From contig JAAYKY010000011.1 of NCBI GenBank assembly GCA_012522185.1, forward strand, positions 1 to 44,734: DNA of 44,734 nucleotides, read 5' to 3'. The notes beneath the pieces were generated by a model, which was not told the origin of the DNA, did not search any database, and was given only the letters and a program-made list of their open reading frames with translations. This document shows positions 6,004 through 29,416 of this stretch, piece by piece. The stretch's first letter is position 1; the number at the start of each line of letters is the position of its first letter. A program made the translations under genes and the position numbers. This DNA comes from Flavobacteriaceae bacterium (GTDB lineage Bacteria > Bacteroidota > Bacteroidia > Flavobacteriales > Weeksellaceae).

Positions 6004-6489
6004 TTATTTTTGAATATTTCTATTAACTAAGCTTTGAAAAGCTATCATTTCTGCTTCATTATTAAAATATCTTTTGGGAATGACATAAGCAACTATACTA
6101 TCGATATAAAGATAAAAAGCATTTTTACCTTCTTCAAATTTTTTTACTGTAGCCCAATTAACTGCTCCTTGTGAGTTTTCACTATTGTATAAAATTTTAT
6201 CGTCAGAGAATTCATATTCTGTTTTACTTAAAAAACTCCCATCTTTTAAAGCTATTTTTTTTGTACTTTTTAATCTAAAATAAATTAAAAGGAAACAAGT
6301 AAGCCAAAAAATTACTGTTGAAAAAATTATAGCGAATAAATTTATTCCGTAATTAATAAGGAAATATAATTGTATAATAATAAATGCAATACAATACAAA
6401 ATAATTGATTTTCTAAAACCATTTTTCATGAAATGATGTTTAGCAAAATCTGAATAATCTTCCCTCGTTATATCTACAACTATTTTCAT
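6004..6489 (-). CDS. YcxB-like membrane protein
   Basis: This 161-residue protein of unknown function has two closely spaced hydrophobic helices (about residues 28-47 and 51-70). They are followed by a soluble domain with the YcxB-like pattern: EYEFSDDKILYNSENSQGAVNWATVKKFEE, then FYLYIDSIVAYVIPKRYF. The family is usually a small membrane-anchored domain with no proven role. The gene is markedly more AT-rich than cysS and folE on either side, which may mark it as a later arrival. It lies 39 bp upstream of cysS in the same direction. Confidence 0.75.
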   Translation of the reverse strand: MKIVVDITREDYSDFAKHHFMKNGFRKSIILYCIAFIIIQLYFLINYGINLFAIIFSTVIFWLTCFLLIYFRLKSTKKIALKDGSFLSKTEYEFSDDKILYNSENSQGAVNWATVKKFEEGKNAFYLYIDSIVAYVIPKRYFNNEAEMIAFQSLVNRNIQK

Positions 6490-6509
6490 TTCAAATCTAA
6501 ATCTTCAAA

Positions 6510-6560
6510 CTCCCCTCCTTCCTGTCCGTCAGATAGGCGGATGGATGAGACTAGGGAGGC
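6510..6560. repeat. GC-richer hairpin element, possible dispersed intergenic repeat
   Basis: Between the YcxB-like gene and folE lies a GC-richer island in AT-rich DNA. CTCCCCTCC near 6510 faces GGGAGG near 6554, and inside it CCTGTC (6521-6526) can pair with GATAGG (6532-6537). It is placed just after the folE stop, where it could end folE transcription, but there is no T tail. Confidence 0.4.
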
Positions 6561-7238
6561 TTACACATTAAATTTCGTATGCACGCCGATGTAATGCAGG
6601 AATTCTCTTCTTGTCGTCGGATCGGTTTTGAAAATCCCGCCCAATTCTGCCGTCACGGTGCTGCTGTCGATATCACGAATACCCCGTGAATTTACACAAA
6701 GGTGTTTCGCATCGATTACACAGGCAACATCTTCCGTTCCCAATGCGTCCTGCATCGCTTTTACAATCTGCATCGTCAGTCTTTCCTGAACTTGCGGACG
6801 TTTCGCGTAATAATCCACGATGCGGTTCATTTTAGAAAGCCCGATTACTTTTCCGTTTGAAATATATCCGATATGCGCTTTCCCTACGATGGGCAGAAAA
6901 TGGTGCTCACAGGTCGAATAAACCGTGATGTCTTTCTCCACCAACATTTGGTTGTATTTATATTTATTATCAAACGTGGACATTTTGGGCTTTCGATCGG
7001 GATGCAATCCACCGAAAATTTCATTGACAAACATTTTGGCTACGCGTTTGGGCGTTCCTTTCAAACTATCATCGGTCAAATCCAATCCCAAAGTATCCAT
7101 AATGTTTTTGAAATCGGCTTCGATTTTTGCAATTTTTTCATCATTACTCAACTCAAAAGCATCTTTGCGCATAGGCGTATCGTGGTGCGACGCAAAGTGA
7201 TCATCGCCTATTTCGTCGTACAAATTCTGGTCAGACAT
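6561..7238 (-). CDS. folE: GTP cyclohydrolase I
   Basis: This 225-residue enzyme converts GTP to 7,8-dihydroneopterin triphosphate, the first step of tetrahydrofolate and pterin synthesis. The zinc site is visible in STCEHHFLPIVGKAHIGYI and in the later Cys of HLCVNSRG. The family motifs GTPKRVAKMF and RPQVQERLT are intact. The frame is open to an ATG at 7262, but a TAAATTTG promoter element sits at 7260-7267, so the second ATG at 7238 (MSDQNLYDEIGDD) is the likely start. The gene is divergent from hutH. The ~40-residue N-terminal extension before the core is usual in Bacteroidota. Confidence 0.96.
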   Translation of the reverse strand: MSDQNLYDEIGDDHFASHHDTPMRKDAFELSNDEKIAKIEADFKNIMDTLGLDLTDDSLKGTPKRVAKMFVNEIFGGLHPDRKPKMSTFDNKYKYNQMLVEKDITVYSTCEHHFLPIVGKAHIGYISNGKVIGLSKMNRIVDYYAKRPQVQERLTMQIVKAMQDALGTEDVACVIDAKHLCVNSRGIRDIDSSTVTAELGGIFKTDPTTRREFLHYIGVHTKFNV

Positions 7239-20058: not shown

Positions 20059-20090
20059 ACAGGTTCATACAAATTGAGCCTGTTTTCTTT
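20059..20090 (+). terminator. Terminator of the UDP-sugar dehydrogenase gene
   Basis: ACAGGTTCA (20059-20067) pairs with TGAGCCTGT (20075-20083, one G-U), followed by TTTCTTTT. It lies 31 bases after the stop. Confidence 0.75.
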
Positions 20091-20224
20091 TAGAATTGAA
20101 AAATTATTTAAATCCAAAGTCTTTTTTGTAATTTGTCCCTTAACAAACTTTAACATAATTCTATCAATAAATTAGCGAAAAGGAGCACTTAAAATGTGCA
20201 AATTAGCGTGTTTAAACTATCAAT

Positions 20225-21229
20225 ATGCAGAACGACCTCAGTTCATTTGACATTCAACAAGTCAGTGAAGAAATTGAAAGAGAAAGTCAAATCATTTCTC
20301 GACTTTCCAATGAAATCAATAAAAAAGTGATCGGTCAGGAAAAAATGGTGGAAAGCCTTCTGATAGGTCTTCTTTCAAACGGACATATTTTGCTAGAAGG
20401 TGTTCCCGGGTTGGCCAAAACCTTAGCCATAAAAACCTTGTCAGAAGCTGTCAGCGGTTCTTTTTCCAGAATTCAGTTTACACCAGATTTACTTCCGGCC
20501 GATGTCGTAGGAACTTTGATTTACAATATAAAGGAAAACGACTTCAAAATAAAGAAAGGACCCATTTTCGCAAACTTTGTTTTGGCGGACGAAATCAACC
20601 GTTCACCCGCAAAAGTTCAATCAGCACTTTTGGAGGCCATGCAAGAAAAACAAGTGACCATCGGTGATGAAACCTATAAATTGGAAAATCCATTTCTGGT
20701 TCTCGCTACCCAAAATCCGGTGGAACAAGAAGGAACTTATCCACTTCCAGAAGCTCAAGTGGACCGATTTATGCTGAAAACCGTAATTTCCTATCCCAAA
20801 AGAGAAGCCGAAAAACTGGTTTTGAGACATAGCATTCACGAAGGCTTCCCCGAAATAGAAAAAGTAATTAACCTGGAGGAAATTCTCAAAGCCCGAACGA
20901 TTGTGAAAAAAGTGTATATGGACGAAAAAATCGAACGATATATACTCGATATCATCACCGCCACAAGAAATCCACAAGAGTTTAATTTGTCCAAACTTTC
21001 ACCGCTGATTTCCTTTGGAGCTTCTCCGCGTGGAAGCATCAATCTGGCATTGGCAGCACGTTCTTATGCGTTTTTGAGAAGAAGAGCTTATGTGATTCCC
21101 GAAGATGTACGGGCGATGAGCAAAGAAGTTTTGCGCCATCGAATTGGACTGAGTTACGAAGCAGAAGCAGAAAATATTTCAACGGATCAAATTATCGACG
21201 AAATTTTAAATGCCATTCCGATTCCTTAG
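20225..21229 (+). CDS. MoxR-family AAA+ ATPase of the Bat operon
   Basis: This 334-residue cytoplasmic ATPase has Walker A GVPGLAKT (59-66), Walker B LADEIN followed by RSPAKVQSALLEAMQE, and sensor motif LATQNPVEQEGTYPLPEAQVDRF. The lid domain ends in DEILNAIPIP. MoxR proteins act as chaperones that load or activate partners with VWA domains, and this one heads the Bat-type cluster running to 29416. It is separated from the DUF58 gene by three lipoprotein genes, which is not the common arrangement. Its start ATG at 20225 gives the usual N-terminus. Confidence 0.93.
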   Translation: MQNDLSSFDIQQVSEEIERESQIISRLSNEINKKVIGQEKMVESLLIGLLSNGHILLEGVPGLAKTLAIKTLSEAVSGSFSRIQFTPDLLPADVVGTLIYNIKENDFKIKKGPIFANFVLADEINRSPAKVQSALLEAMQEKQVTIGDETYKLENPFLVLATQNPVEQEGTYPLPEAQVDRFMLKTVISYPKREAEKLVLRHSIHEGFPEIEKVINLEEILKARTIVKKVYMDEKIERYILDIITATRNPQEFNLSKLSPLISFGASPRGSINLALAARSYAFLRRRAYVIPEDVRAMSKEVLRHRIGLSYEAEAENISTDQIIDEILNAIPIP

Positions 21230-21310
21230 ATTCAATTTAAGAAATCAAACTAAGATGTAAGAAACAACCTTTTAGTGTTTTTATACATCTACTAATGGAA
21301 AGATGAAAAA

Positions 21311-22138
21311 ATGAAAAGATTACTGACATTAACCGTTTTACTTTTATTGCTTTCTTGTGATTCTAATGCTCAACAAGATAATAGAACAATTGGAATACCA
21401 GATGACTTTGGAAAAGTAAAGCCAAAAAAAGCCGAGAAGAAATTTGAAATTAAGGATTCTATTATAAACAATGTAATCCTGATAGAAAAAGAAAAAGTTT
21501 TCACAAATGGTTCTAATTTTCTGATTGATATGCCGATTAAAGTACAGAAAGAACCTATTATTATTTTCAATAACGACAATCGAATTCCCGTAGAATTATT
21601 CTTTGAAAGGAAATCATTTTTGTACGGACAAAATGAAATTTTATTGATTACGCGTGACTGGGAATATTATGAGAGTCTCAGGGAGGACGAAAGAAACACC
21701 CCCGGGTTACATTTGATTCCCTATGTGCAAAACAAATTTTACCATATCAAAAGAAATAATAAGAGTTACAATGTTGACAGTTTGAGTATCAGAATGGACG
21801 ACCCAAGAAAACCTATTACATTAAACTTCATAAAACCGGAATTTAATGATGGTGAAACAATATACTATTATGCAGATGGATATGGTTCAATTTGTTGTCC
21901 TAGAGATAAACGATGGGATTATTACGAAGCCATTCAAAACTACATTAAACTTTTTGCCGAAAAAAATAATATAAAATTAGAAAATACACGTTCGGTTTCT
22001 AATGGAGAGGAAGGCGAACATAGTAGTTTTTATTCTCTAACCGAATTGACAAACGAACAAAAACTGTTGTTTATTCAAGAAATTAAAAACATAACCGGAG
22101 AAAAATTTCCCCAAATACATCTTCCCATAACTTTTTAG
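21311..22138 (+). CDS. Lipoprotein of unknown function
   Basis: I do not recognise this 275-residue protein. It begins with a lipoprotein signal (MKRLLTLTVLLLLLSCDSNAQ), so it is probably anchored in the outer membrane or inner membrane facing the periplasm. The body has beta-rich and charged stretches and a C-terminal half with DGYGSICCPRDKRWDYY, where the paired cysteines stand out. Its stop is directly followed by the ATG of the next gene. The sequence is clearly more AT-rich than moxR before it and the DUF58 gene after it, which hints at separate origin. Confidence 0.75.
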   Translation: MKRLLTLTVLLLLLSCDSNAQQDNRTIGIPDDFGKVKPKKAEKKFEIKDSIINNVILIEKEKVFTNGSNFLIDMPIKVQKEPIIIFNNDNRIPVELFFERKSFLYGQNEILLITRDWEYYESLREDERNTPGLHLIPYVQNKFYHIKRNNKSYNVDSLSIRMDDPRKPITLNFIKPEFNDGETIYYYADGYGSICCPRDKRWDYYEAIQNYIKLFAEKNNIKLENTRSVSNGEEGEHSSFYSLTELTNEQKLLFIQEIKNITGEKFPQIHLPITF

Positions 22139-22525
22139 ATGACCTCAAAACTTTATATATCATTTCTAATTTTCTGCTTTCTGACGGTAAATTGTTCTAC
22201 CTCAAAAATCGAAAACACAAAAACACAAAAAACAGTAAAAGGAATTGTTCTTGATACTGACGGATTTGGATTTAGTGGTGTTGAAGTGAAAATAAAAGGA
22301 ACTAAGCGAAAAACAACAACGGATATTGACGGGAATTTTGAATTAGATGCTGCTGAAGGCGATGTTTTGATTTTTAACTGTAAGAATTGTACTCATCAAG
22401 AAATTAATGTTACCGATCAAAACGAATATAATATTACGATAAAAGCTTATTATGTTGATAACAAACAACAACGCTATATTAAACGAGAATTAAGAAAAAA
22501 AGGGGTATATGTATATCCTGATTAA
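22139..22525 (+). CDS. Small lipoprotein with a carboxypeptidase-regulatory-like domain (copy 1)
   Basis: This 128-residue protein has a lipoprotein signal ending at the Cys of VNCSTS. It is followed by one CarboxypepD_reg-like beta-sandwich: KGIVLDTDGFGFSGVEVKIKG, then TTTDIDGNFELDAAEGDVLIF. Such domains are usually found at the N-terminus of TonB-dependent receptors and in surface proteins; here it is free-standing. The C-terminus is basic (RYIKRELRKKGVYV). It starts immediately after the stop of the preceding gene. Its first 56 bases are nearly identical to those of the next gene (54 of 56). Confidence 0.75.
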   Translation: MTSKLYISFLIFCFLTVNCSTSKIENTKTQKTVKGIVLDTDGFGFSGVEVKIKGTKRKTTTDIDGNFELDAAEGDVLIFNCKNCTHQEINVTDQNEYNITIKAYYVDNKQQRYIKRELRKKGVYVYPD

Positions 22526-22546
22526 ATCCCATTTTCAATTTAAACG

Positions 22547-22882
22547 ATGACCTCAAAACTTTATATATCATTTCTAATTTTCTGCTTTCTGGCGGTAAGT
22601 TGCACCACAACAAAAAACACAATTGAAAACGAAAAACCGCAAAAAATAGTAAAAGGTGTAGTCCTTGATAGCAACGAAATTCCAGAAGCAGACGCTGAGG
22701 TAGCGGTAAAAGGAACTGACAGAAAAACCACTACTGACAAAGAAGGAAATTTTGAAATAGAAGCAACCAAAGGAGATATTTTAGAAGTTACAACTGTATA
22801 CGGAGAATTTTATGAGCGTCGTATTACTAACAATAGTGGATATATCAGGCTTGTTTCAAGTGTTGTTTTATTAAAAAATTAA
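22547..22882 (+). CDS. Small lipoprotein with a carboxypeptidase-regulatory-like domain (copy 2)
   Basis: This 111-residue paralogue of the preceding gene has the same signal peptide (MTSKLYISFLIFCFLA, Cys in VSCTTT) and one beta-sandwich domain (KGVVLDSNEIPEADAEVAVKG, TTTDKEGNFEIEATKGD). The mature part is only moderately similar to copy 1 and lacks its basic C-terminus. It is separated by 21 bp from copy 1 and by 57 bp from the DUF58 gene. The function is unknown. Confidence 0.75.
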   Translation: MTSKLYISFLIFCFLAVSCTTTKNTIENEKPQKIVKGVVLDSNEIPEADAEVAVKGTDRKTTTDKEGNFEIEATKGDILEVTTVYGEFYERRITNNSGYIRLVSSVVLLKN

Positions 22883-22939
22883 CCTAAATCTACGTCTTGA
22901 AAAACTTTAAACTCTGAACCTTAAACTTTAAATTAAATT

Positions 22940-23815
22940 TTGGACACCAAAGAAATCATTAAAAAAGTCAAAAAGATTGAGCTAAAGAGCCGACGCAAGG
23001 CAAACAATCTTTTCATGGGCGAATACCAAAGTTCATTCAAAGGTCGTGGAATGATTTTTTCTGAGATTCGACCTTATCAATACGGTGATGACGTAAGAAA
23101 TATTGACTGGAATAAAACCGCGCATTTCAACGAGCCTTATGTGAAAGTTTTTGAAGAAGAAAGAGAACTCACAATGGTTTTGATGGTGGATGTAAGTGGT
23201 TCTCAAAATTTCGGAACCCGAAAGCAATTCAAATCCGACACCATCGCCGAAATCTGCGCTACACTTGCTTTTTCAGCTATCACTTACAATGATAAAGTAG
23301 GTTTAATTCTTTTTTCTGAAGAAATCGAATTGTTCATTCCACCCAAAAAAGGAAAAAAACACGTACTGAGAATCATCCGAGAATTGGTTCATCATGAACC
23401 CAAAAACTCAAGCAATAATTTATCCCATGCTCTTCGTTTTCTAATGGATACCTTTAAACGAAAGGCAAATGTTTTCATTTTGTCGGATTTTATGGATGAA
23501 AGCAATTACCTGAAAAACCTAAAAATTGCCGCTCGAAAACATGATGTAACAGGAATCCGAGTATATGATGAAAAAGAAAAAGAATTTCCGGACATTGGTT
23601 TAGTCACTCTGATGGACAATGAAACTGGCAAAAAGAAAATTGTACACACTTCTTCTGAATTTGTACGGAAACAATACAAAAGCTATTTCGATCGATTGAC
23701 GTATGAGTTCAATCAACGGTTCAATCTAGCAGGTGCCGGAAATTTATCGATTCGTGCCGATGAGGATTACGTCAAACCCTTGTTGAATTATTTTAAAAAA
23801 CATTCGGTGAAATGA
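22940..23815 (+). CDS. DUF58-domain protein of the Bat operon
   Basis: This 291-residue protein starts at a TTG codon at 22940 (MDTKEIIKKVKKIELKSRR); the usual family N-terminus begins exactly here, and no ATG gives it. The conserved core has FKGRGMIFSEIRPYQYGDDVRNIDWN and the VWA-like metal site DVSGS (84-88). DUF58 proteins pair with MoxR ATPases in Bat clusters. Its stop overlaps the start of the next gene by four bases (ATGA). Use of TTG as start is unusual in this window. Confidence 0.92.
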   Translation: MDTKEIIKKVKKIELKSRRKANNLFMGEYQSSFKGRGMIFSEIRPYQYGDDVRNIDWNKTAHFNEPYVKVFEEERELTMVLMVDVSGSQNFGTRKQFKSDTIAEICATLAFSAITYNDKVGLILFSEEIELFIPPKKGKKHVLRIIRELVHHEPKNSSNNLSHALRFLMDTFKRKANVFILSDFMDESNYLKNLKIAARKHDVTGIRVYDEKEKEFPDIGLVTLMDNETGKKKIVHTSSEFVRKQYKSYFDRLTYEFNQRFNLAGAGNLSIRADEDYVKPLLNYFKKHSVK

Positions 23816-24810
23816 TGGGACGCATAGAGGTTAGAGATTGGAAGTTGGTTTTTGGAAAATGGCTATGGATGTCTGTTTTCTATTTTCTATTTTCTACTTT
23901 CTCGTCTGCACAAATCGACACAGAAATCGACACAGCACATATCAAAATCGGTGAGCCGATTCAGTATTCTCTTAAAGTTCCTCTACAAGTTGACACTCCT
24001 GTGATTTTGCCAGAAATTCAAGATACACTCAGTTTTCATATCGAGGTCTTGGAAGAAAGAACCGACACAGTGTTGGAGGGCGAAAGAAAAAACCTTATCA
24101 AACGAATGGTTCTGACGAGTTTCGATCCGGGTGAGTTTCTGATTCGTTCACTTCCTGTGGTGGTGGGTGGCGATACTTTGCTCTCTGCTTCTTTTCAAAT
24201 CAAAGTAGATGATGTGGAAATTGACTCCGCAAATCTGACCGGATTTCCTATCAAACCTATAATGGATGAGGAATATACATGGAAAGATTATTGGGATAAA
24301 TACTGGATTTATTTTGCAGTCGGCATCTTATTATTTTTGATTTTATTAATTGTAGCAATCCTATTTCTACGCGACAAAAAAAGAAAGGACATTTTGGCCA
24401 AAACACCCAAAACACCCTATGAAGAAGCCAAATACGCATTGAAATCCCTTGACAAACAAAATTATCTTCAGAAAAATCAATTCAATCCTTATTATTCCGA
24501 ACTTTCTTATGTGTTGAGGAGGTATTTAGGAAGGGTTTTCCATTTTTCTTCTCTGGAATTATTGTCAGATGATTTGATTGATTATTTCAGAAAAACCACC
24601 CATTTAGAAAAAGAAGAAATTGAACAACTAAGAGAGTTTTTATACGATTCCGATTTGGCGAAATTTGCCAAAGTGGTTCCCGAAAAGGAGAAACATGATT
24701 TTTATCGAAAATGGGTAGAGGATTTGATTGAAAAAACCAAACCTTTGGAATTGGAAGATGAAACGGTTCAGGAGTTGAGACCCAATGAAAAATATAGAAA
24801 ATTAAGATGA
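23812..24810 (+). CDS. Bat-operon membrane protein of unknown function
   Basis: This 332-residue protein starts with a signal/anchor (KLVFGKWLWMSVFYFLFSTFSSAQ). It continues with a beta-rich periplasmic domain (about 35-150) that looks like a short BatD-type region, a membrane helix (about 163-185, WIYFAVGILLFLILLIVAILFL), and a helical cytoplasmic C-terminus (PYEEAKYALKSL to YRKWVEDLIEK) like DUF4381-type proteins. It shares ATGA overlaps with both neighbours, so translation is coupled. Flavobacterial Bat operons often carry such a gene between DUF58 and batA. The precise role is unknown. Confidence 0.7.
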   Translation: MMGRIEVRDWKLVFGKWLWMSVFYFLFSTFSSAQIDTEIDTAHIKIGEPIQYSLKVPLQVDTPVILPEIQDTLSFHIEVLEERTDTVLEGERKNLIKRMVLTSFDPGEFLIRSLPVVVGGDTLLSASFQIKVDDVEIDSANLTGFPIKPIMDEEYTWKDYWDKYWIYFAVGILLFLILLIVAILFLRDKKRKDILAKTPKTPYEEAKYALKSLDKQNYLQKNQFNPYYSELSYVLRRYLGRVFHFSSLELLSDDLIDYFRKTTHLEKEEIEQLREFLYDSDLAKFAKVVPEKEKHDFYRKWVEDLIEKTKPLELEDETVQELRPNEKYRKLR

Positions 24811-25826
24811 TGGGAAATTTTGAATTTCAAAATCCTTGGATGCTGTTGTTGCTTCTTTTGATTCCCTTGCTGATTTATCTGCGAATCAAAAGAAAAAGAC
24901 CGCATTCTGTTCTGAAAATATCTTCCCTGAAGCCCTTTGAAACTACCGATAGTTTTTTGGGGAAATTAAAACCTCTGCTCTATGTTTTACGTCTGGCGAC
25001 GATAGCTTTGATTGTCATCGCGCTTGCCCGCCCACAAATCGTAGAAATGACATCCACGGTTAAATCGGATAAAGGTGTCGATATTTTGATGGTGGTCGAC
25101 ACCTCTTTGAGTATGCTTGCAAGAGACCTGAAACCGGATCGTTTGGAAGCTTTAAAAGAAGTTGCAGAAAATTTTTCCCGCGCTCGGCCTACCGACCGAA
25201 TCGGTTTGGTGGCTTATTCGGGAGAAGCCATTGCCAAAGTTCCTTTGACTACAGATCATCGGGTTTTAATCCAAGAAATTCGGAATTTGGAAACCAAAGA
25301 GCTTGAAGATGGAACGGCCATCGGAGTCGGCTTAGCTACCGCCATCAATCACCTGACCGATAGCAAAGCAACAAGTAAAATCATCATCCTGATTACCGAC
25401 GGTGTGGAATCCATTGATTATCGGAACGATTTGCTGTATGTTTCGCCACAAGATGCTACTCAAATCGCTATGAACAAAGGAATTAAAGTTTATACCATCG
25501 GTGTGGGAACAAACGGTAGAGCACCATTTCCTACTCAATACAATCCTTTCACTCAAGAACTAATTTTCACCATGGAATTGGTAGAAATCGATGAAGATTT
25601 GTTGAGACACATTGCGGATAGTACCGGTGGGGAATATTTCAGAGCGACGGACAATGAATCTTTGGAGGAAATTTACAGCCAAATTGATCAATTGGAAAAA
25701 ACAGAAATCAACGAAATAAAATATTACAATTACACCGAATTGTTTGGAAAATACCTTACTTGGGCATTGGCATTGCTATGCTTCGAACTCATTTTACGTA
25801 GAACTCTGTTTAAAGAATTAACCTGA
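24807..25826 (+). CDS. batA: BatA-like VWA-domain membrane protein
   Basis: This 339-residue protein has an N-terminal membrane helix (about 10-25), a second near 60-75, and a von Willebrand factor A domain with the metal-ion site DTSLS (98-102), a later TAIGVG stretch and ITDGVES. A C-terminal membrane helix (about 315-332) ends it. The VWA domain faces the periplasm. Bat proteins are linked to aerotolerance in Bacteroides fragilis, though the mechanism is unclear. The stop and the next start overlap (TGATG). Confidence 0.92.
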   Translation: MMGNFEFQNPWMLLLLLLIPLLIYLRIKRKRPHSVLKISSLKPFETTDSFLGKLKPLLYVLRLATIALIVIALARPQIVEMTSTVKSDKGVDILMVVDTSLSMLARDLKPDRLEALKEVAENFSRARPTDRIGLVAYSGEAIAKVPLTTDHRVLIQEIRNLETKELEDGTAIGVGLATAINHLTDSKATSKIIILITDGVESIDYRNDLLYVSPQDATQIAMNKGIKVYTIGVGTNGRAPFPTQYNPFTQELIFTMELVEIDEDLLRHIADSTGGEYFRATDNESLEEIYSQIDQLEKTEINEIKYYNYTELFGKYLTWALALLCFELILRRTLFKELT

Positions 25827-26836
25827 TGGATTGGGCACAACCCGAAAATAGCGTTTGGCTTCTAGCGGTTCCGATTATAATCGGCCTAGCGATTTATGTC
25901 CATAATTGGCGTAAGAAAACACGCGAGAAATTCGCTGACGCAAATCTTCTTTCCCGATTATTTCCATTGAGTTCAGATTCATCTTATTGGTGGAAAAATA
26001 TTCTAATCATTTCCGGTTTGTTATTTTCGATTTTAGCCTTGATGGATCCTCTTTTTGGGGAAGAAGAAGTCAAAATCAAACGAGAAGGAATTGACATTAT
26101 TTACGCATTGGATTTGTCCAATAGCATGAATGCCGAAGACGTGGTTCCAAGCCGTTTGGAGCGAGCCAAAAAAATCATCTCCGAATCGGTCGGAAGGTTA
26201 GGTGGCGATCGTGTGGGTTTGATTGTCTTTGCTGCTGATGCTTATTCCATTTCACCTTTGACAAACGATTACAGTGCCATTCAGTCGTATATTCAAACTG
26301 CAAGTCCTGAATTAATTTCTCAACAGGGAACCAGTTTTTCGGCCGTCATTACCAAAGCCGCAGAAATGTTTGAAAATGCACCGACTACAGGAAAATTACT
26401 AGTGATTCTTTCCGATGGGGAGGACAATGAAAATAGCGTAAATCGCGCCATAGAATTAGCCAAAAAAACAAATATTCACATTGTTACGATGGGAATAGGA
26501 ACCGAAAAAGGAGGTCCCATACCGGTTAAAGAAGGCTCGTTTGAATCATTTAAACTCGATCGATACGGAGAAACCGTGATTTCCAAACTGGAAGAAAATT
26601 CTATGCAATCCCTTGCCAAATCCACTTCAGGTGTTTACCTAAGAGTCAATCAAACGCAACAATCCCTTGACCGTTTACACGGCTATTTAAATACTTTGGA
26701 CAAAGAAGTTCAAGACATATCCACCAGTAAAGACAAAAAACATATTTTTCAAGTCTTTTTAGCAATTGCCTTGTTTTTGATTTTTATAGATACTTTAACA
26801 ACTGACCATAAACTTTTTAACAACAAAAAGCAATAG
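25826..26836 (+). CDS. batB: BatB-like VWA-domain membrane protein
   Basis: This 336-residue protein has the same plan as the gene before it: membrane helices near 10-27 and 57-74, a VWA domain with the metal site DLSNS (96-100), a later LSDGEDNEN and a C-terminal helix (about 310-325). It is a paralogue of batA and overlaps it by one base. The VWA pair is thought to form a periplasmic-side complex with the TPR protein encoded next. Confidence 0.92.
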   Translation: MDWAQPENSVWLLAVPIIIGLAIYVHNWRKKTREKFADANLLSRLFPLSSDSSYWWKNILIISGLLFSILALMDPLFGEEEVKIKREGIDIIYALDLSNSMNAEDVVPSRLERAKKIISESVGRLGGDRVGLIVFAADAYSISPLTNDYSAIQSYIQTASPELISQQGTSFSAVITKAAEMFENAPTTGKLLVILSDGEDNENSVNRAIELAKKTNIHIVTMGIGTEKGGPIPVKEGSFESFKLDRYGETVISKLEENSMQSLAKSTSGVYLRVNQTQQSLDRLHGYLNTLDKEVQDISTSKDKKHIFQVFLAIALFLIFIDTLTTDHKLFNNKKQ

Positions 26837-26849
26837 TTTTGTGCCAACG

Positions 26850-27662
26850 ATGCCTATGCTTAAACATATACTAACTATTTTTATACTACTGAATTTTTTG
26901 CAAAACCTTTCTGCTCAGAAATCGGAAGCAAAGGACTATATCATCAGTGGAAATCAAAGTTATTATCAAGGCGATTTTTCAAAAGCCGAAACCAAATATA
27001 AAATTGCGCTTTCCGAAGATCCCAATTCTTTGAAAGCCAGCTATAATTTAGGGAATGCTTTGTACAATCAAAGTCGATTGGAAGAAGCAAGGGTTCATTA
27101 TGACCGAGTAATTAAAAACCGGGAATCGACTAAGGCTGACAAACACAAAGCGTATCATAACATCGGAAAAACCTATCTGGATGAGAACGATCCTGAGAAA
27201 GCGGTTACCCATCTGAAAGAAGCTTTAAAGCTCAATCCTTATGACGATGAAACCCGTTATAATTATGCTTTGGCTCGAAAGCTTTTAGAGAAACAACAAG
27301 AAGATAACGAAAAGAAAGACCAGGAAAATTCTGAGGAAAATCAAGACGATTCCCAAGAGAATTCTGAGAATTCAAATGAAGGAGAGGAAGGTGAAAACGA
27401 TGGAGAATCCAAACCTCAGGATCAAGGAGGAAATCAAGAAGGCGGGCAAAATGGACAAGAACAAGGCGAAGGCGATACGCCTCAAGGACAGCAAATAACC
27501 AAGGGTTCACAAGGCGAAGGAAATGAATCCCAAAGACCGATGAACACACAGCGACAAGAAGGTTTATTGGAGGCTTTGCGTCAACAAGAACAAGAAACAC
27601 TCAAAAAAATAATCAGTCAAAAAGCAAAAAAGGTAAGAACAAATACGGAAAAGGATTGGTAA
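26850..27662 (+). CDS. batC: BatC-like TPR protein
   Basis: This 270-residue protein has a signal peptide (MLKHILTIFILLNFLQNLSAQ), about three TPRs (30-145, with SYYQGDFSKAETKYKIAL and ASYNLGNALYNQSRLEEARVHYDR), and a long acidic, Gln/Glu/Asn/Gly-rich tail (about 150-235). A basic helix ends it. An upstream GTG at 26841 is possible, but the ATG at 26850 (or the in-frame ATG at 26856) better starts the signal peptide. The stop overlaps the batD ATG by one base (TAATG). Confidence 0.88.
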   Translation: MPMLKHILTIFILLNFLQNLSAQKSEAKDYIISGNQSYYQGDFSKAETKYKIALSEDPNSLKASYNLGNALYNQSRLEEARVHYDRVIKNRESTKADKHKAYHNIGKTYLDENDPEKAVTHLKEALKLNPYDDETRYNYALARKLLEKQQEDNEKKDQENSEENQDDSQENSENSNEGEEGENDGESKPQDQGGNQEGGQNGQEQGEGDTPQGQQITKGSQGEGNESQRPMNTQRQEGLLEALRQQEQETLKKIISQKAKKVRTNTEKDW

Positions 27663-29416
27663 TGTTGAAACGAAATCTTTTATTGGCATTTCTTTTTTTC
27701 TTCGCAAATTTTCTGTGGAGCCAGGAACTGAATTTTAAAGCAGTGGCCAGCAAAACGGAAGTTTCTGTAAACGAGCGCTTCGTGGTTCAGTTTGTTTTAA
27801 CCTATGGACAAGAAAATCTCTCCGTAGATCGGCCGTTGAGCTTACCTGATTTTGGGAAACTCCATCAATTGGGCGAATCCAAAATCAATAGTTTTCAGTT
27901 CATTAACGGAAACGTAATCAATCAGTCCGGAGTAGAGGTGATGTTGGTCGCAGATCAAGAAGGGGAATTCACAATTGGAGCTGCCACAGTCACAATCGAC
28001 GGGAAACGTTACCGAACCGAACCCATTAAGATTTCGGTAAAAAAAGGACTCAAACCTGTTCCACCAGCGGGTCAACGTTTACAAGGAGCTTTTCTGACTG
28101 CTGAACTATCAGAGGAAAACCCATTTCTCAATCAAGAAGTGGTTTTGACAGTGAAAATTTACGCACGTGATTATTCGATTTTGCGTCGTTTAAGAAATTA
28201 TCAAGAACCGGATTTCAATAATATGATCGCCAAATACGTCAGCGAAAAATTGGATGATGACGAAAAGCAAGTTTTGGTAAACGGCGTCACATTCATTCAA
28301 AAAGTTTTGGCGCGTTATGTATTATTTCCTCAAAAAGAAGGGAAAATTGAAATCGATCCTTTCTCTATAAACGTCCTTGTCTCAGGCTATTATGGAGCTG
28401 AAAATGTACAACTTACTTCGGAGCCAGCGATTATGCGCGTACGAGAGCTTCCTTCGGGAAAACCCTCCAATTTCAGTGGTGCTATTGGGGATTACAAATT
28501 AAATGCTTCGTTATCGAAAAAGCAAATCAATGCAAATGAGGCGGTCAATCTGGAAGTAGAAATAGTAGGTGCCGGCAACCTCAACACATTGAAATCTCCT
28601 GAAATTCCTTTGCCGGAACACATCGAAGCTTTTCCACCCAAAAAGAATGACGTCATTGAAGTTCGTCCTTCTGGAATGCGTGGAGCTGTGGTTCAAAATC
28701 ATGTTTTGGTTCCACAATACGGAGGCGATTATAAAATTGGGCCGGTGCTTTTCAATTATTTCGATCCGAACAAAGAAAAGTACATCACCCTTCAGACCAA
28801 ACCTTTCAATTTATCAGTAAACGGCCCCGAACCACCAAGGGAAGACAGTTTGGAAACCAATGATTTCTCGGATCATCTTCGAAACGATTCTTCAAGTCTT
28901 GACAAAGTCGTCGTTCCTCAGAAAATTACAGAAGTAAAAGACAAAGTAGTGGAAACGGTTTCCACCAACAATAATTGGATTTGGGTTCTTATCGCCATGG
29001 GTGCAGTTTTAATCGCCGTTCTATTCTGGATTCGATCAAAGCAATCGGGCGCCAAAGAAAAGGCAGCACTGAGCGAAAAACAATTCAAATCTCAGTTCAA
29101 ATCCGAGATAAATCAAAAATTAACTGCTTTGAAGTCTTTGGCTCAAAAGCAAGATAAGAATGCATTTTTATCGCTTCAAGAAGAAATTCTGACGCAAATC
29201 GGGATGCATTATAGTGGCACCAACCTATCGGAATTTACGGAAACTCATGTCGATGAAAAACTAGAGTCGACCTACGGCGAGCTTGCTATGAAGTGGAAGT
29301 CCTTGATTTCAGAATGCAAACAATCCAAATATGCATTTGGCGAAACGGGCAAAAGTCTGATGAGCAAATTCAAAGAAACCGAAGAAATTTGGAAAGCTTT
29401 TCAGAAAAAGGCTTAA
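27662..29416 (+). CDS. batD: BatD-like membrane protein
   Basis: This 584-residue protein has a signal peptide (to about 20, FANFLWSQ), then several beta-sandwich repeats of BatD type (FKAVASKTEVSVNERFVVQF, AELSEENPFLNQEVVLTV and LNASLSKKQINANEAVNLEV). A membrane helix (about 440-460, WIWVLIAMGAVLIAVLFWI) and a helical cytoplasmic tail follow. It is the last gene of the Bat cluster. The ATG at 27662 is preferred over a TTG at 27656. Function in the complex is unknown. Confidence 0.9.
   Translation: MLKRNLLLAFLFFFANFLWSQELNFKAVASKTEVSVNERFVVQFVLTYGQENLSVDRPLSLPDFGKLHQLGESKINSFQFINGNVINQSGVEVMLVADQEGEFTIGAATVTIDGKRYRTEPIKISVKKGLKPVPPAGQRLQGAFLTAELSEENPFLNQEVVLTVKIYARDYSILRRLRNYQEPDFNNMIAKYVSEKLDDDEKQVLVNGVTFIQKVLARYVLFPQKEGKIEIDPFSINVLVSGYYGAENVQLTSEPAIMRVRELPSGKPSNFSGAIGDYKLNASLSKKQINANEAVNLEVEIVGAGNLNTLKSPEIPLPEHIEAFPPKKNDVIEVRPSGMRGAVVQNHVLVPQYGGDYKIGPVLFNYFDPNKEKYITLQTKPFNLSVNGPEPPREDSLETNDFSDHLRNDSSSLDKVVVPQKITEVKDKVVETVSTNNNWIWVLIAMGAVLIAVLFWIRSKQSGAKEKAALSEKQFKSQFKSEINQKLTALKSLAQKQDKNAFLSLQEEILTQIGMHYSGTNLSEFTETHVDEKLESTYGELAMKWKSLISECKQSKYAFGETGKSLMSKFKETEEIWKAFQKKA

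Follow-up and report, generated by a model that had tools for sequence, protein, structure and literature searches.

A three-gene block of exported proteins between moxR and the DUF58 gene of a flavobacterial Bat operon, a probable passenger insertion

In this flavobacterium, three genes lie between moxR and the DUF58 gene of the Bat operon, raising the question of whether they are new parts of the Bat machinery or passengers carried by its operon. The window, that is, the whole stretch of DNA analysed, covers 44.7 kb of a draft genome of 2.55 Mb (G000). An earlier note had described three close-packed, same-strand lipoprotein genes at this place, two of them small and carboxypeptidase-regulatory-like, and had proposed that they are either passengers using the operon's promoter or new surface partners of the Bat complex. 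The three ORFs are real: they encode proteins of 275, 128 and 111 amino acids, all on the + strand, and the two small products, hereafter c1 and c2, both match the Pfam CarbopepD_reg_2 model (c2 barely). On either side of the insert, the genes make up an ordinary Bat operon that begins with moxR (Table 1). Compared with the common components of this operon (MoxR, DUF58, VWA, TPR and BatD), the three insert genes are not shared across the family loci read. Downstream, the two VWA-type (BatA/BatB-like), the TPR-type (BatC-like) and the BatD-like proteins were named by eye from sequence, without a model search, and the 332-aa membrane protein gave weak, sub-cut-off Pfam matches to DUF4381 and BatD. 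The spacings moxR/275, 275/c1, c1/c2 and c2/DUF58 measure 81, 0, 21 and 57 nt, the stop codon of the 275-aa gene abutting the ATG of c1.

Table 1. The insert (21311-22882) and its surroundings; positions are those of the window.
Feature	Position	Strand	Basis or remark
moxR	20225..21229	+	AAA_3 + AAA_lid_2, Pfam PF07726 E 1.8e-65; first gene of the Bat operon
Imperfect hairpin, 38 nt, moxR/insert junction	21253..21290	.	-10.8 kcal/mol (fold of 21226-21300), no T run
275-aa exported protein	21311..22138	+	two modules, ~45-185 and 179-262
c1, 128-aa CarbopepD_reg_2 putative lipoprotein	22139..22525	+	PF13715 E 8.5e-10
Identical 46-nt leader, copy 1 (c1)	22138..22183	+	sequence comparison
c2, 111-aa CarbopepD_reg_2 putative lipoprotein	22547..22882	+	PF13715 E 1.1e-7
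Identical 46-nt leader, copy 2 (c2)	22546..22591	+	sequence comparison
Putative remnant of the ancestral moxR-DUF58 spacer	22900..22939	+	by-eye comparison with L035; closely resembles the last part of G001's 71-nt spacer
DUF58 / VWA gene	22940..23815	+	PF01882 E 1.3e-76; TTG start
Remaining Bat operon	23812..29416	+	332-aa membrane protein, two VWA-type, TPR-type, BatD-like

DUF58 was matched in 155 of the 158 family genomes searched. In the four congeners readable at the locus, G001, G002, G004 and G005, the moxR-DUF58 gap is gene-free and measures 71, 58, 78 and 33 nt, respectively, against 1710 nt here, so that the empty site expected of a passenger insertion is seen in 4/4; the fifth congener, G003, a 76% complete assembly, gave no DUF58 match. 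Directly upstream of DUF58, the window has ~40 nt that closely match the final part of the G001 spacer, and the TTG start of DUF58 is common to the five genus members read, indicating that the block lies between moxR and the old spacer. Given spacers of 33-78 nt in the four congeners and the old spacer sequence kept in the window, insertion is the most likely origin of the block, loss in all four congeners being less likely. Since these congeners are other species (DUF58 identity 71-87%), the insertion can be called recent only in a relative sense.

We then considered the family as a whole through 100 DUF58 loci fetched out of the 155 genomes with a match. None of these other loci encodes a relative of the 275-aa protein, c1 or c2 (tblastn, E 0.01). 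The distribution of a Bat component, with the three proteins present in the operon across the family, was thus not found in the 100 loci, nor in the four congeners, and it is this family-wide presence that the earlier note had named as evidence against its proposal. Ninety-seven of the loci are readable with moxR upstream (left out were L080, at a contig end, and L078 and L079, whose DUF58 genes have no moxR match within ~5 kb upstream). The gap is at most 150 nt long in 60/97, holds one or more other same-strand ORFs of at least 60 aa in 26/97, and is longer without such an ORF in 11/97, counting L054, whose gap measured separately is -21. The statement that moxR and DUF58 genes are usually adjacent therefore holds for 60 loci and fails in its strict form, as 26 carry another ORF. 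These 26 filled gaps contain GNAT-like genes (14), four-helix 23S_rRNA_IVP-type genes alone (4) or others (8), assignments made by eye except for two GNAT and three four-helix genes (L043, L171, L081), which were tested with Pfam and all positive. The eight others include DapB (L060), a lipocalin-like protein (L074) and NrdD with a radical-SAM-type protein (L088); proteins without assignment occupy the gap in L170, L188, L190 and L193, and L081 combines an unassigned gene with a four-helix gene. In L088, which comes from G007, the NRDD gene next to the radical-SAM-type one codes for an anaerobic ribonucleotide reductase. These data demonstrate that the moxR-DUF58 spacer is permissive: different lineages of one family fill the same gap with unrelated genes.

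Base composition points in the same direction as expected of passengers. The insert is more AT-rich than its flanks, as had been claimed, with a GC content of 31.2%; when the 44.7 kb are divided into 432 windows of the insert's length, 1.4% of them are as low or lower. GC3 is 0.275 for the 275-aa gene, 0.194 for c1 and 0.232 for c2, compared with a mean of 0.369 (sd 0.061) for the 582 ORFs that reach 100 aa or more in a 662-kb sample of G000, a deviation of ~1.5 to 3 sd that is supportive, not decisive. Because GC3 is at or below 0.275 in 7.9% and at or below 0.232 in 2.9% of those ORFs, the composition is low without being extreme. Elsewhere in the window (6004-6489, - strand), an AT-rich, 161-aa YcxB-like gene lies between cysS-like and folE-like genes of the same strand; a homologue was found in 2/5 congeners searched, and this gene is possibly another passenger.

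How would the block be expressed? A sigma-70 promoter scan with a weak consensus found 12 matches against 12.0 expected, which is chance level. An equally weak scan for the Bacteroidota-type consensus, which we take to be TTTG-N17-23-TANNTTTG, found one match, inside c2, against 1.8 expected. By these weak, chance-level scans, the moxR/275 and c2/DUF58 junctions hold no promoter-like match, and a single 9-of-12 match lies across the 275/c1 junction; a separate promoter, which the earlier note had listed as a counter-argument, was hence not found at the outer junctions. On the + strand, no terminator-like site was found from 20086 to 24000. With neither a promoter-like match in the outer junctions nor a + strand terminator-like site in the block, transcription from the moxR promoter most likely runs on through the insert, whose genes would then be cotranscribed with the operon. 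Consistent mRNA levels have been seen for moxR and the bat genes of Riemerella anatipestifer, which are regarded as one operon, and the bat genes respond to stress (PMC11834572).

Signs of mobility are scarce. The ends of the insert carry no direct repeat or target-site duplication above chance, and no mobile-element gene was found inside it; a weak inverted pair (20 nt, 80% complementary) joins the interior of moxR to the interior of the 275-aa gene and does not sit at the ends. Among viral contigs, neither the 275-aa family nor c1 had a match, and among plasmids the 275-aa protein had none. We also considered cargo of a transposable element or prophage and rejected it, as there is no mobility gene, no end repeat, and a search of 13 genomes that allowed up to 3 mismatches found the hairpin at the moxR/insert junction once, in G000 only.

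For the 275-aa protein, Pfam gave nothing up to E 1 and NCBIfam only a chance-level hit (E 0.91), and a PDB profile search with its family found no match. Neither this protein nor c1 or c2 matched a PADLOC family up to E 0.1, and none of them thereby qualifies as known anti-phage defence. An AlphaFold model built on a two-sequence alignment reached a mean pLDDT of 41.8. Strong matches (E 3.1e-25 or better) were found in 13/320 family genomes, its own included; at E 0.01, 93/320 have some match, and the matches that fall short of E 3.1e-25 lie mainly on the C-terminal module (residues 179-262) and were not counted as members. All 12 other strong homologues lie at places other than moxR|DUF58. 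A further carrier, with a named record, is Flavobacterium macacae. The congener G004 possesses a 49% homologue at another place, so the gene may have been inherited at genus level and moved, rather than being new DNA.

Homologues of the 275-aa gene were found inside two further gene pairs, whose names (uppP, truB, exbB and exbD, as well as hbd below) we assign from sequence as presumed identities. The uppP|truB interval holds a family gene in five genomes of genus g20, and the exbB|exbD interval in G008 (L268 / L137). For uppP-truB, 40 genomes were searched, centred on the insert-bearing G185, and of the best 30 loci read, 3 have the family gene, 20 have gaps of at most 78 nt, 3 have gaps of 173-235 nt, and 4 contain another ORF. 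In these last four (L250, L260, L261 and L264), the ORF encodes a different protein of ~150 aa with a signal peptide. For exbB-exbD, the family gene is present in 1/30 loci read; among the other 29, 26 have gaps of at most 82 nt, one has another ORF (L277, 226 aa), and exbD was not found in two (L296, L297). The values 3/30 and 1/30 are not unbiased frequencies, as G185 and G008 were chosen as insert carriers and the best 30 loci were taken for each. In G008, a perfect direct repeat of 22 nt, which corresponds to the exbD leader, brackets the insert, the maximum in 20 shuffles being 11; one copy stands before the inserted gene and the other before exbD. No flanking direct repeat above the shuffle range was detected at the 12 other homologues tested, nor at the window block. 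Not every copy is flanked on the same strand, since on one side L136 (the congener copy) and L147 each adjoin a gene of the opposite strand. At L146 (G145, ~6300-7098), near a contig end, a family gene devoid of the C-terminal module adjoins an ORF that looks transposase-like by eye.

The C-terminal module (~179-262), which carries an ICC...EGE motif, is homologous to a stand-alone, exported family of ~136 aa in g20 (hhalign E 8.6e-9). These stand-alone proteins differ from the 275-aa protein in consisting of one module and in occupying a constant genomic place: in all ten loci inspected (L120, L121, L122, L123, L124, L126, L128, L131, L133, L135), the gene lies between a class A beta-lactamase-like gene and an hbd-like gene. 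The beta-lactamase-like neighbour belongs to the CGA/CIA family in the single one tested, and a PDB profile search with the ~136-aa family returned one chance-level match only (E 0.6). Among the open-access matches listed, none gave an account of the 275-aa family or of its sitting in tight gene pairs.

We next examined the c1/c2 pair. Against the PF13715 cut-off of 32.2 bits, c1 scores 39.0 and c2 32.3, just enough for membership. Both also match the start of TIGR04056 (SusC/RagA), c1 over columns 1-72 (E 1e-13, a part match that stays well below the cut-off set for the whole protein) and c2 over columns 3-52. Apart from c2, the best matches of c1 in its own genome and in 60 family genomes fall within open reading frames of ~1000 aa. 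The pair thus resembles the N-terminal CarbopepD_reg_2 domain of SusC/RagA TonB-dependent receptors, but, unlike such receptors, c1 and c2 are small, stand on their own, carry a signal peptide and lack a barrel. The two proteins are 55% identical over residues 1-97. Their 46-nt leader is identical, from one base before the ATG to a point inside the signal peptide, most of which it covers, while the aligned codons of the mature parts are ~58% identical in nucleotides. Degenerate codons for the same residue are identical in 14/14 cases within the first 15 codons versus 22/41 beyond (Fisher p 8.7e-4), and third positions in 15/15 versus 44/89 (p 8e-5). A search of the G000 assembly with a 39-nt part of the leader, allowing up to 3 mismatches, found two occurrences only.

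In a within-genome test (662 kb of 2.55 Mb), c1/c2 was the 1 hit of score at least 24 in 24,976 leader-bearing gene pairs. Random pairs of secreted genes from different loci reached at least 18 in 26/5856 cases and at least 30 in 8, with a maximum of 60, the high-scoring pairs being presumably orthologues in related genomes; because this control is unfavourable, the claim of a special leader is based on the within-genome test. Adjacent same-strand exported-type pairs with common leader DNA number 6/97, namely c1/c2 and five in F. macacae (the 97 pairs were drawn from 74 sequences: the window, 60 Bat loci and 13 homologue loci). At F. macacae L148:599-9860, a tandem array of exported-protein genes surrounds the 275-family gene, several of them with similar leader DNA. 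In the pairs 599/2004, 7285/7853 and 4935/5998 the mature parts are no more alike than shuffled sequence, and 3271/3810 and 8867/9360 are plain paralogues. For c1 and c2, tandem duplication with a later leader exchange probably explains the pattern best; constraint on the mRNA start region is a weaker alternative cause of the leader identity. Recombination at conserved blocks of tandem paralogues has been published for T7SS immunity genes (PMC9484751), and among the open-access matches listed no paper treats leader-sharing tandem lipoproteins.

All three proteins had been called lipoproteins, a designation that is likely correct for c1 and c2 and doubtful for the 275-aa protein. The latter has a possible lipobox, LLSC, at residues 13-16, and a plausible lipobox is present in 4/14 aligned family members, the window protein and three g23 rows; in the other ten, L147 has an improbable internal Cys and nine have no leader Cys. 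Gln 21 is invariant across the 14 rows, coming directly after the leader in most rows, a position that fits the Bacteroidetes Q-rule for signal peptidase I (PMC5837995), and after Cys-Lys in the three g23 rows. In c1, an unusual Asn precedes the Cys. The surface signals that PMC5080379 gives for Bacteroidota lipoproteins after the Cys (K-(D/E)2, Q-A-(D/E)2, SDDDD, SDDFE) have no acidic counterpart in CDSNAQ, CSTSKI or CTTTKN of the three insert proteins; cleavage sites were judged by eye, and export motifs known from other Bacteroidota may not be those of this genus. On these lipobox counts and in view of the missing acidic signal, lipidation is uncertain for the 275-aa protein and appears likely for c1 and c2; there is no indication of surface exposure, and a periplasmic orientation of the exported proteins is more likely than a surface one.

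Taken together, these results favour the first half of the earlier proposal, genes riding on the operon's promoter: the site is near-empty in 4/4 congeners, unrelated genes fill 26/97 gaps, 275-aa homologues sit in other gene pairs, and the weak scans gave no promoter-like match at the two outer junctions. The second half, new surface partners of the Bat complex, fared poorly, with no relatives in the 100 DUF58 loci and no acidic export signal after the cysteines. We conclude that a passenger block, oriented like the operon, probably entered the moxR-DUF58 spacer after the split from the sampled congeners, that the moxR promoter most likely drives it by read-through, and that the exported proteins it encodes are unlikely to be Bat parts. 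The absence of the block in relatives and the presence of 275-aa relatives inside other housekeeping pairs argue for a passenger rather than a new Bat part, and since none of the other Bat loci read carries the three genes, they are unlikely to act directly in Bat function. It is quite improbable that the three proteins are lineage-specific functional additions, for example partners in the periplasm or outer membrane that work with the VWA proteins when stress induces the operon. Their close-packed, same-strand position inside the operon would suit such a role, as would the stress-responsive bat mRNA of R. anatipestifer (PMC11834572), a control that passengers would share; the lack of relatives in the 100 loci, the homologues in unrelated pairs and the 26 gaps with unrelated genes all speak against it. 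Still more improbable is that the three genes are ancestral at moxR|DUF58 and were lost in the sampled congeners: G004 does retain a 275-family gene, elsewhere, but repeated loss would be needed, given that 4/4 congeners and 100/100 fetched family loci are without the three genes, and the low GC3 of the insert genes also weighs against this history.

The three genes could alternatively form an orphan-immunity-like set, of fast-turnover periplasmic proteins directed against neighbours' toxins, with tandem paralogues recombining at a conserved leader like tipC. This reading, which we regard as unlikely, draws on the sporadic distribution of the 275-aa family, on tandem paralogues with identical signal-peptide DNA, on the F. 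macacae homologue in an exported-protein array where several genes have common leader DNA, and on the published analogue of T7SS immunity genes (PMC9484751). In esaG/tipC, as in c1/c2, paralogues stand in tandem, and tipC has a conserved 5' block adjoining the lipoprotein signal peptide and a variable middle; here there are only two copies and no recognised toxin, and the likeness drawn is one of arrangement. Against an immunity function, there is no PADLOC match and no match to a Pfam immunity family, no toxin gene was recognised by eye alongside, and the F. macacae array includes a peptidase-S9-type hydrolase and a DUF4932 protein, and is not plainly an immunity array. To our knowledge, CarbopepD_reg_2 is not an immunity fold. 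A protective, immunity-like envelope role of the insert proteins is possible, with no family match in its favour.

Under the preferred reading, a passenger insertion, the three-gene block would have entered the short moxR-DUF58 spacer in direction, in one lineage of the genus. As neither a promoter nor a terminator is visible at either end, it would be expressed by read-through from the moxR promoter, and thus without cutting off the downstream bat genes. Its products would be a sporadic, two-module 275-aa protein and two putative lipoproteins resembling the SusC N-terminal domain, the small genes having arisen by duplication first, with one leader probably renewed by later exchange. Such passengers would tolerate the operon and be tolerated by it. 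Insertion of horizontally acquired genes into existing operons is a known general phenomenon (PMC2259305). The present case agrees with it in that foreign-looking genes lie in direction inside a conserved operon without a visible promoter, and differs in that one family occurs in three unrelated tight pairs, one of them with a 22-nt flanking repeat; no paper on this same phenomenon of insertions in conserved operons was among the open-access matches listed. A broader interpretation, to which we give distinctly little credence, would make the 275-aa family a specialised operon hitch-hiker, placed repeatedly, in direction and almost scarless in tight housekeeping pairs (moxR|DUF58, uppP|truB, exbB|exbD), sometimes by duplicating the leader of the downstream gene; arrays would share leader DNA while bodies swap, signal-peptide sequences serving as recombination joints for exported-protein cassettes.

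In conclusion, because the moxR-DUF58 spacer is tolerant of other genes, adjacency to moxR is poor evidence of Bat function. The 275-aa protein represents an exported family without a Pfam or NCBIfam model that is found inside tight gene pairs, and it offers a handle on how genes enter operons without breaking them.
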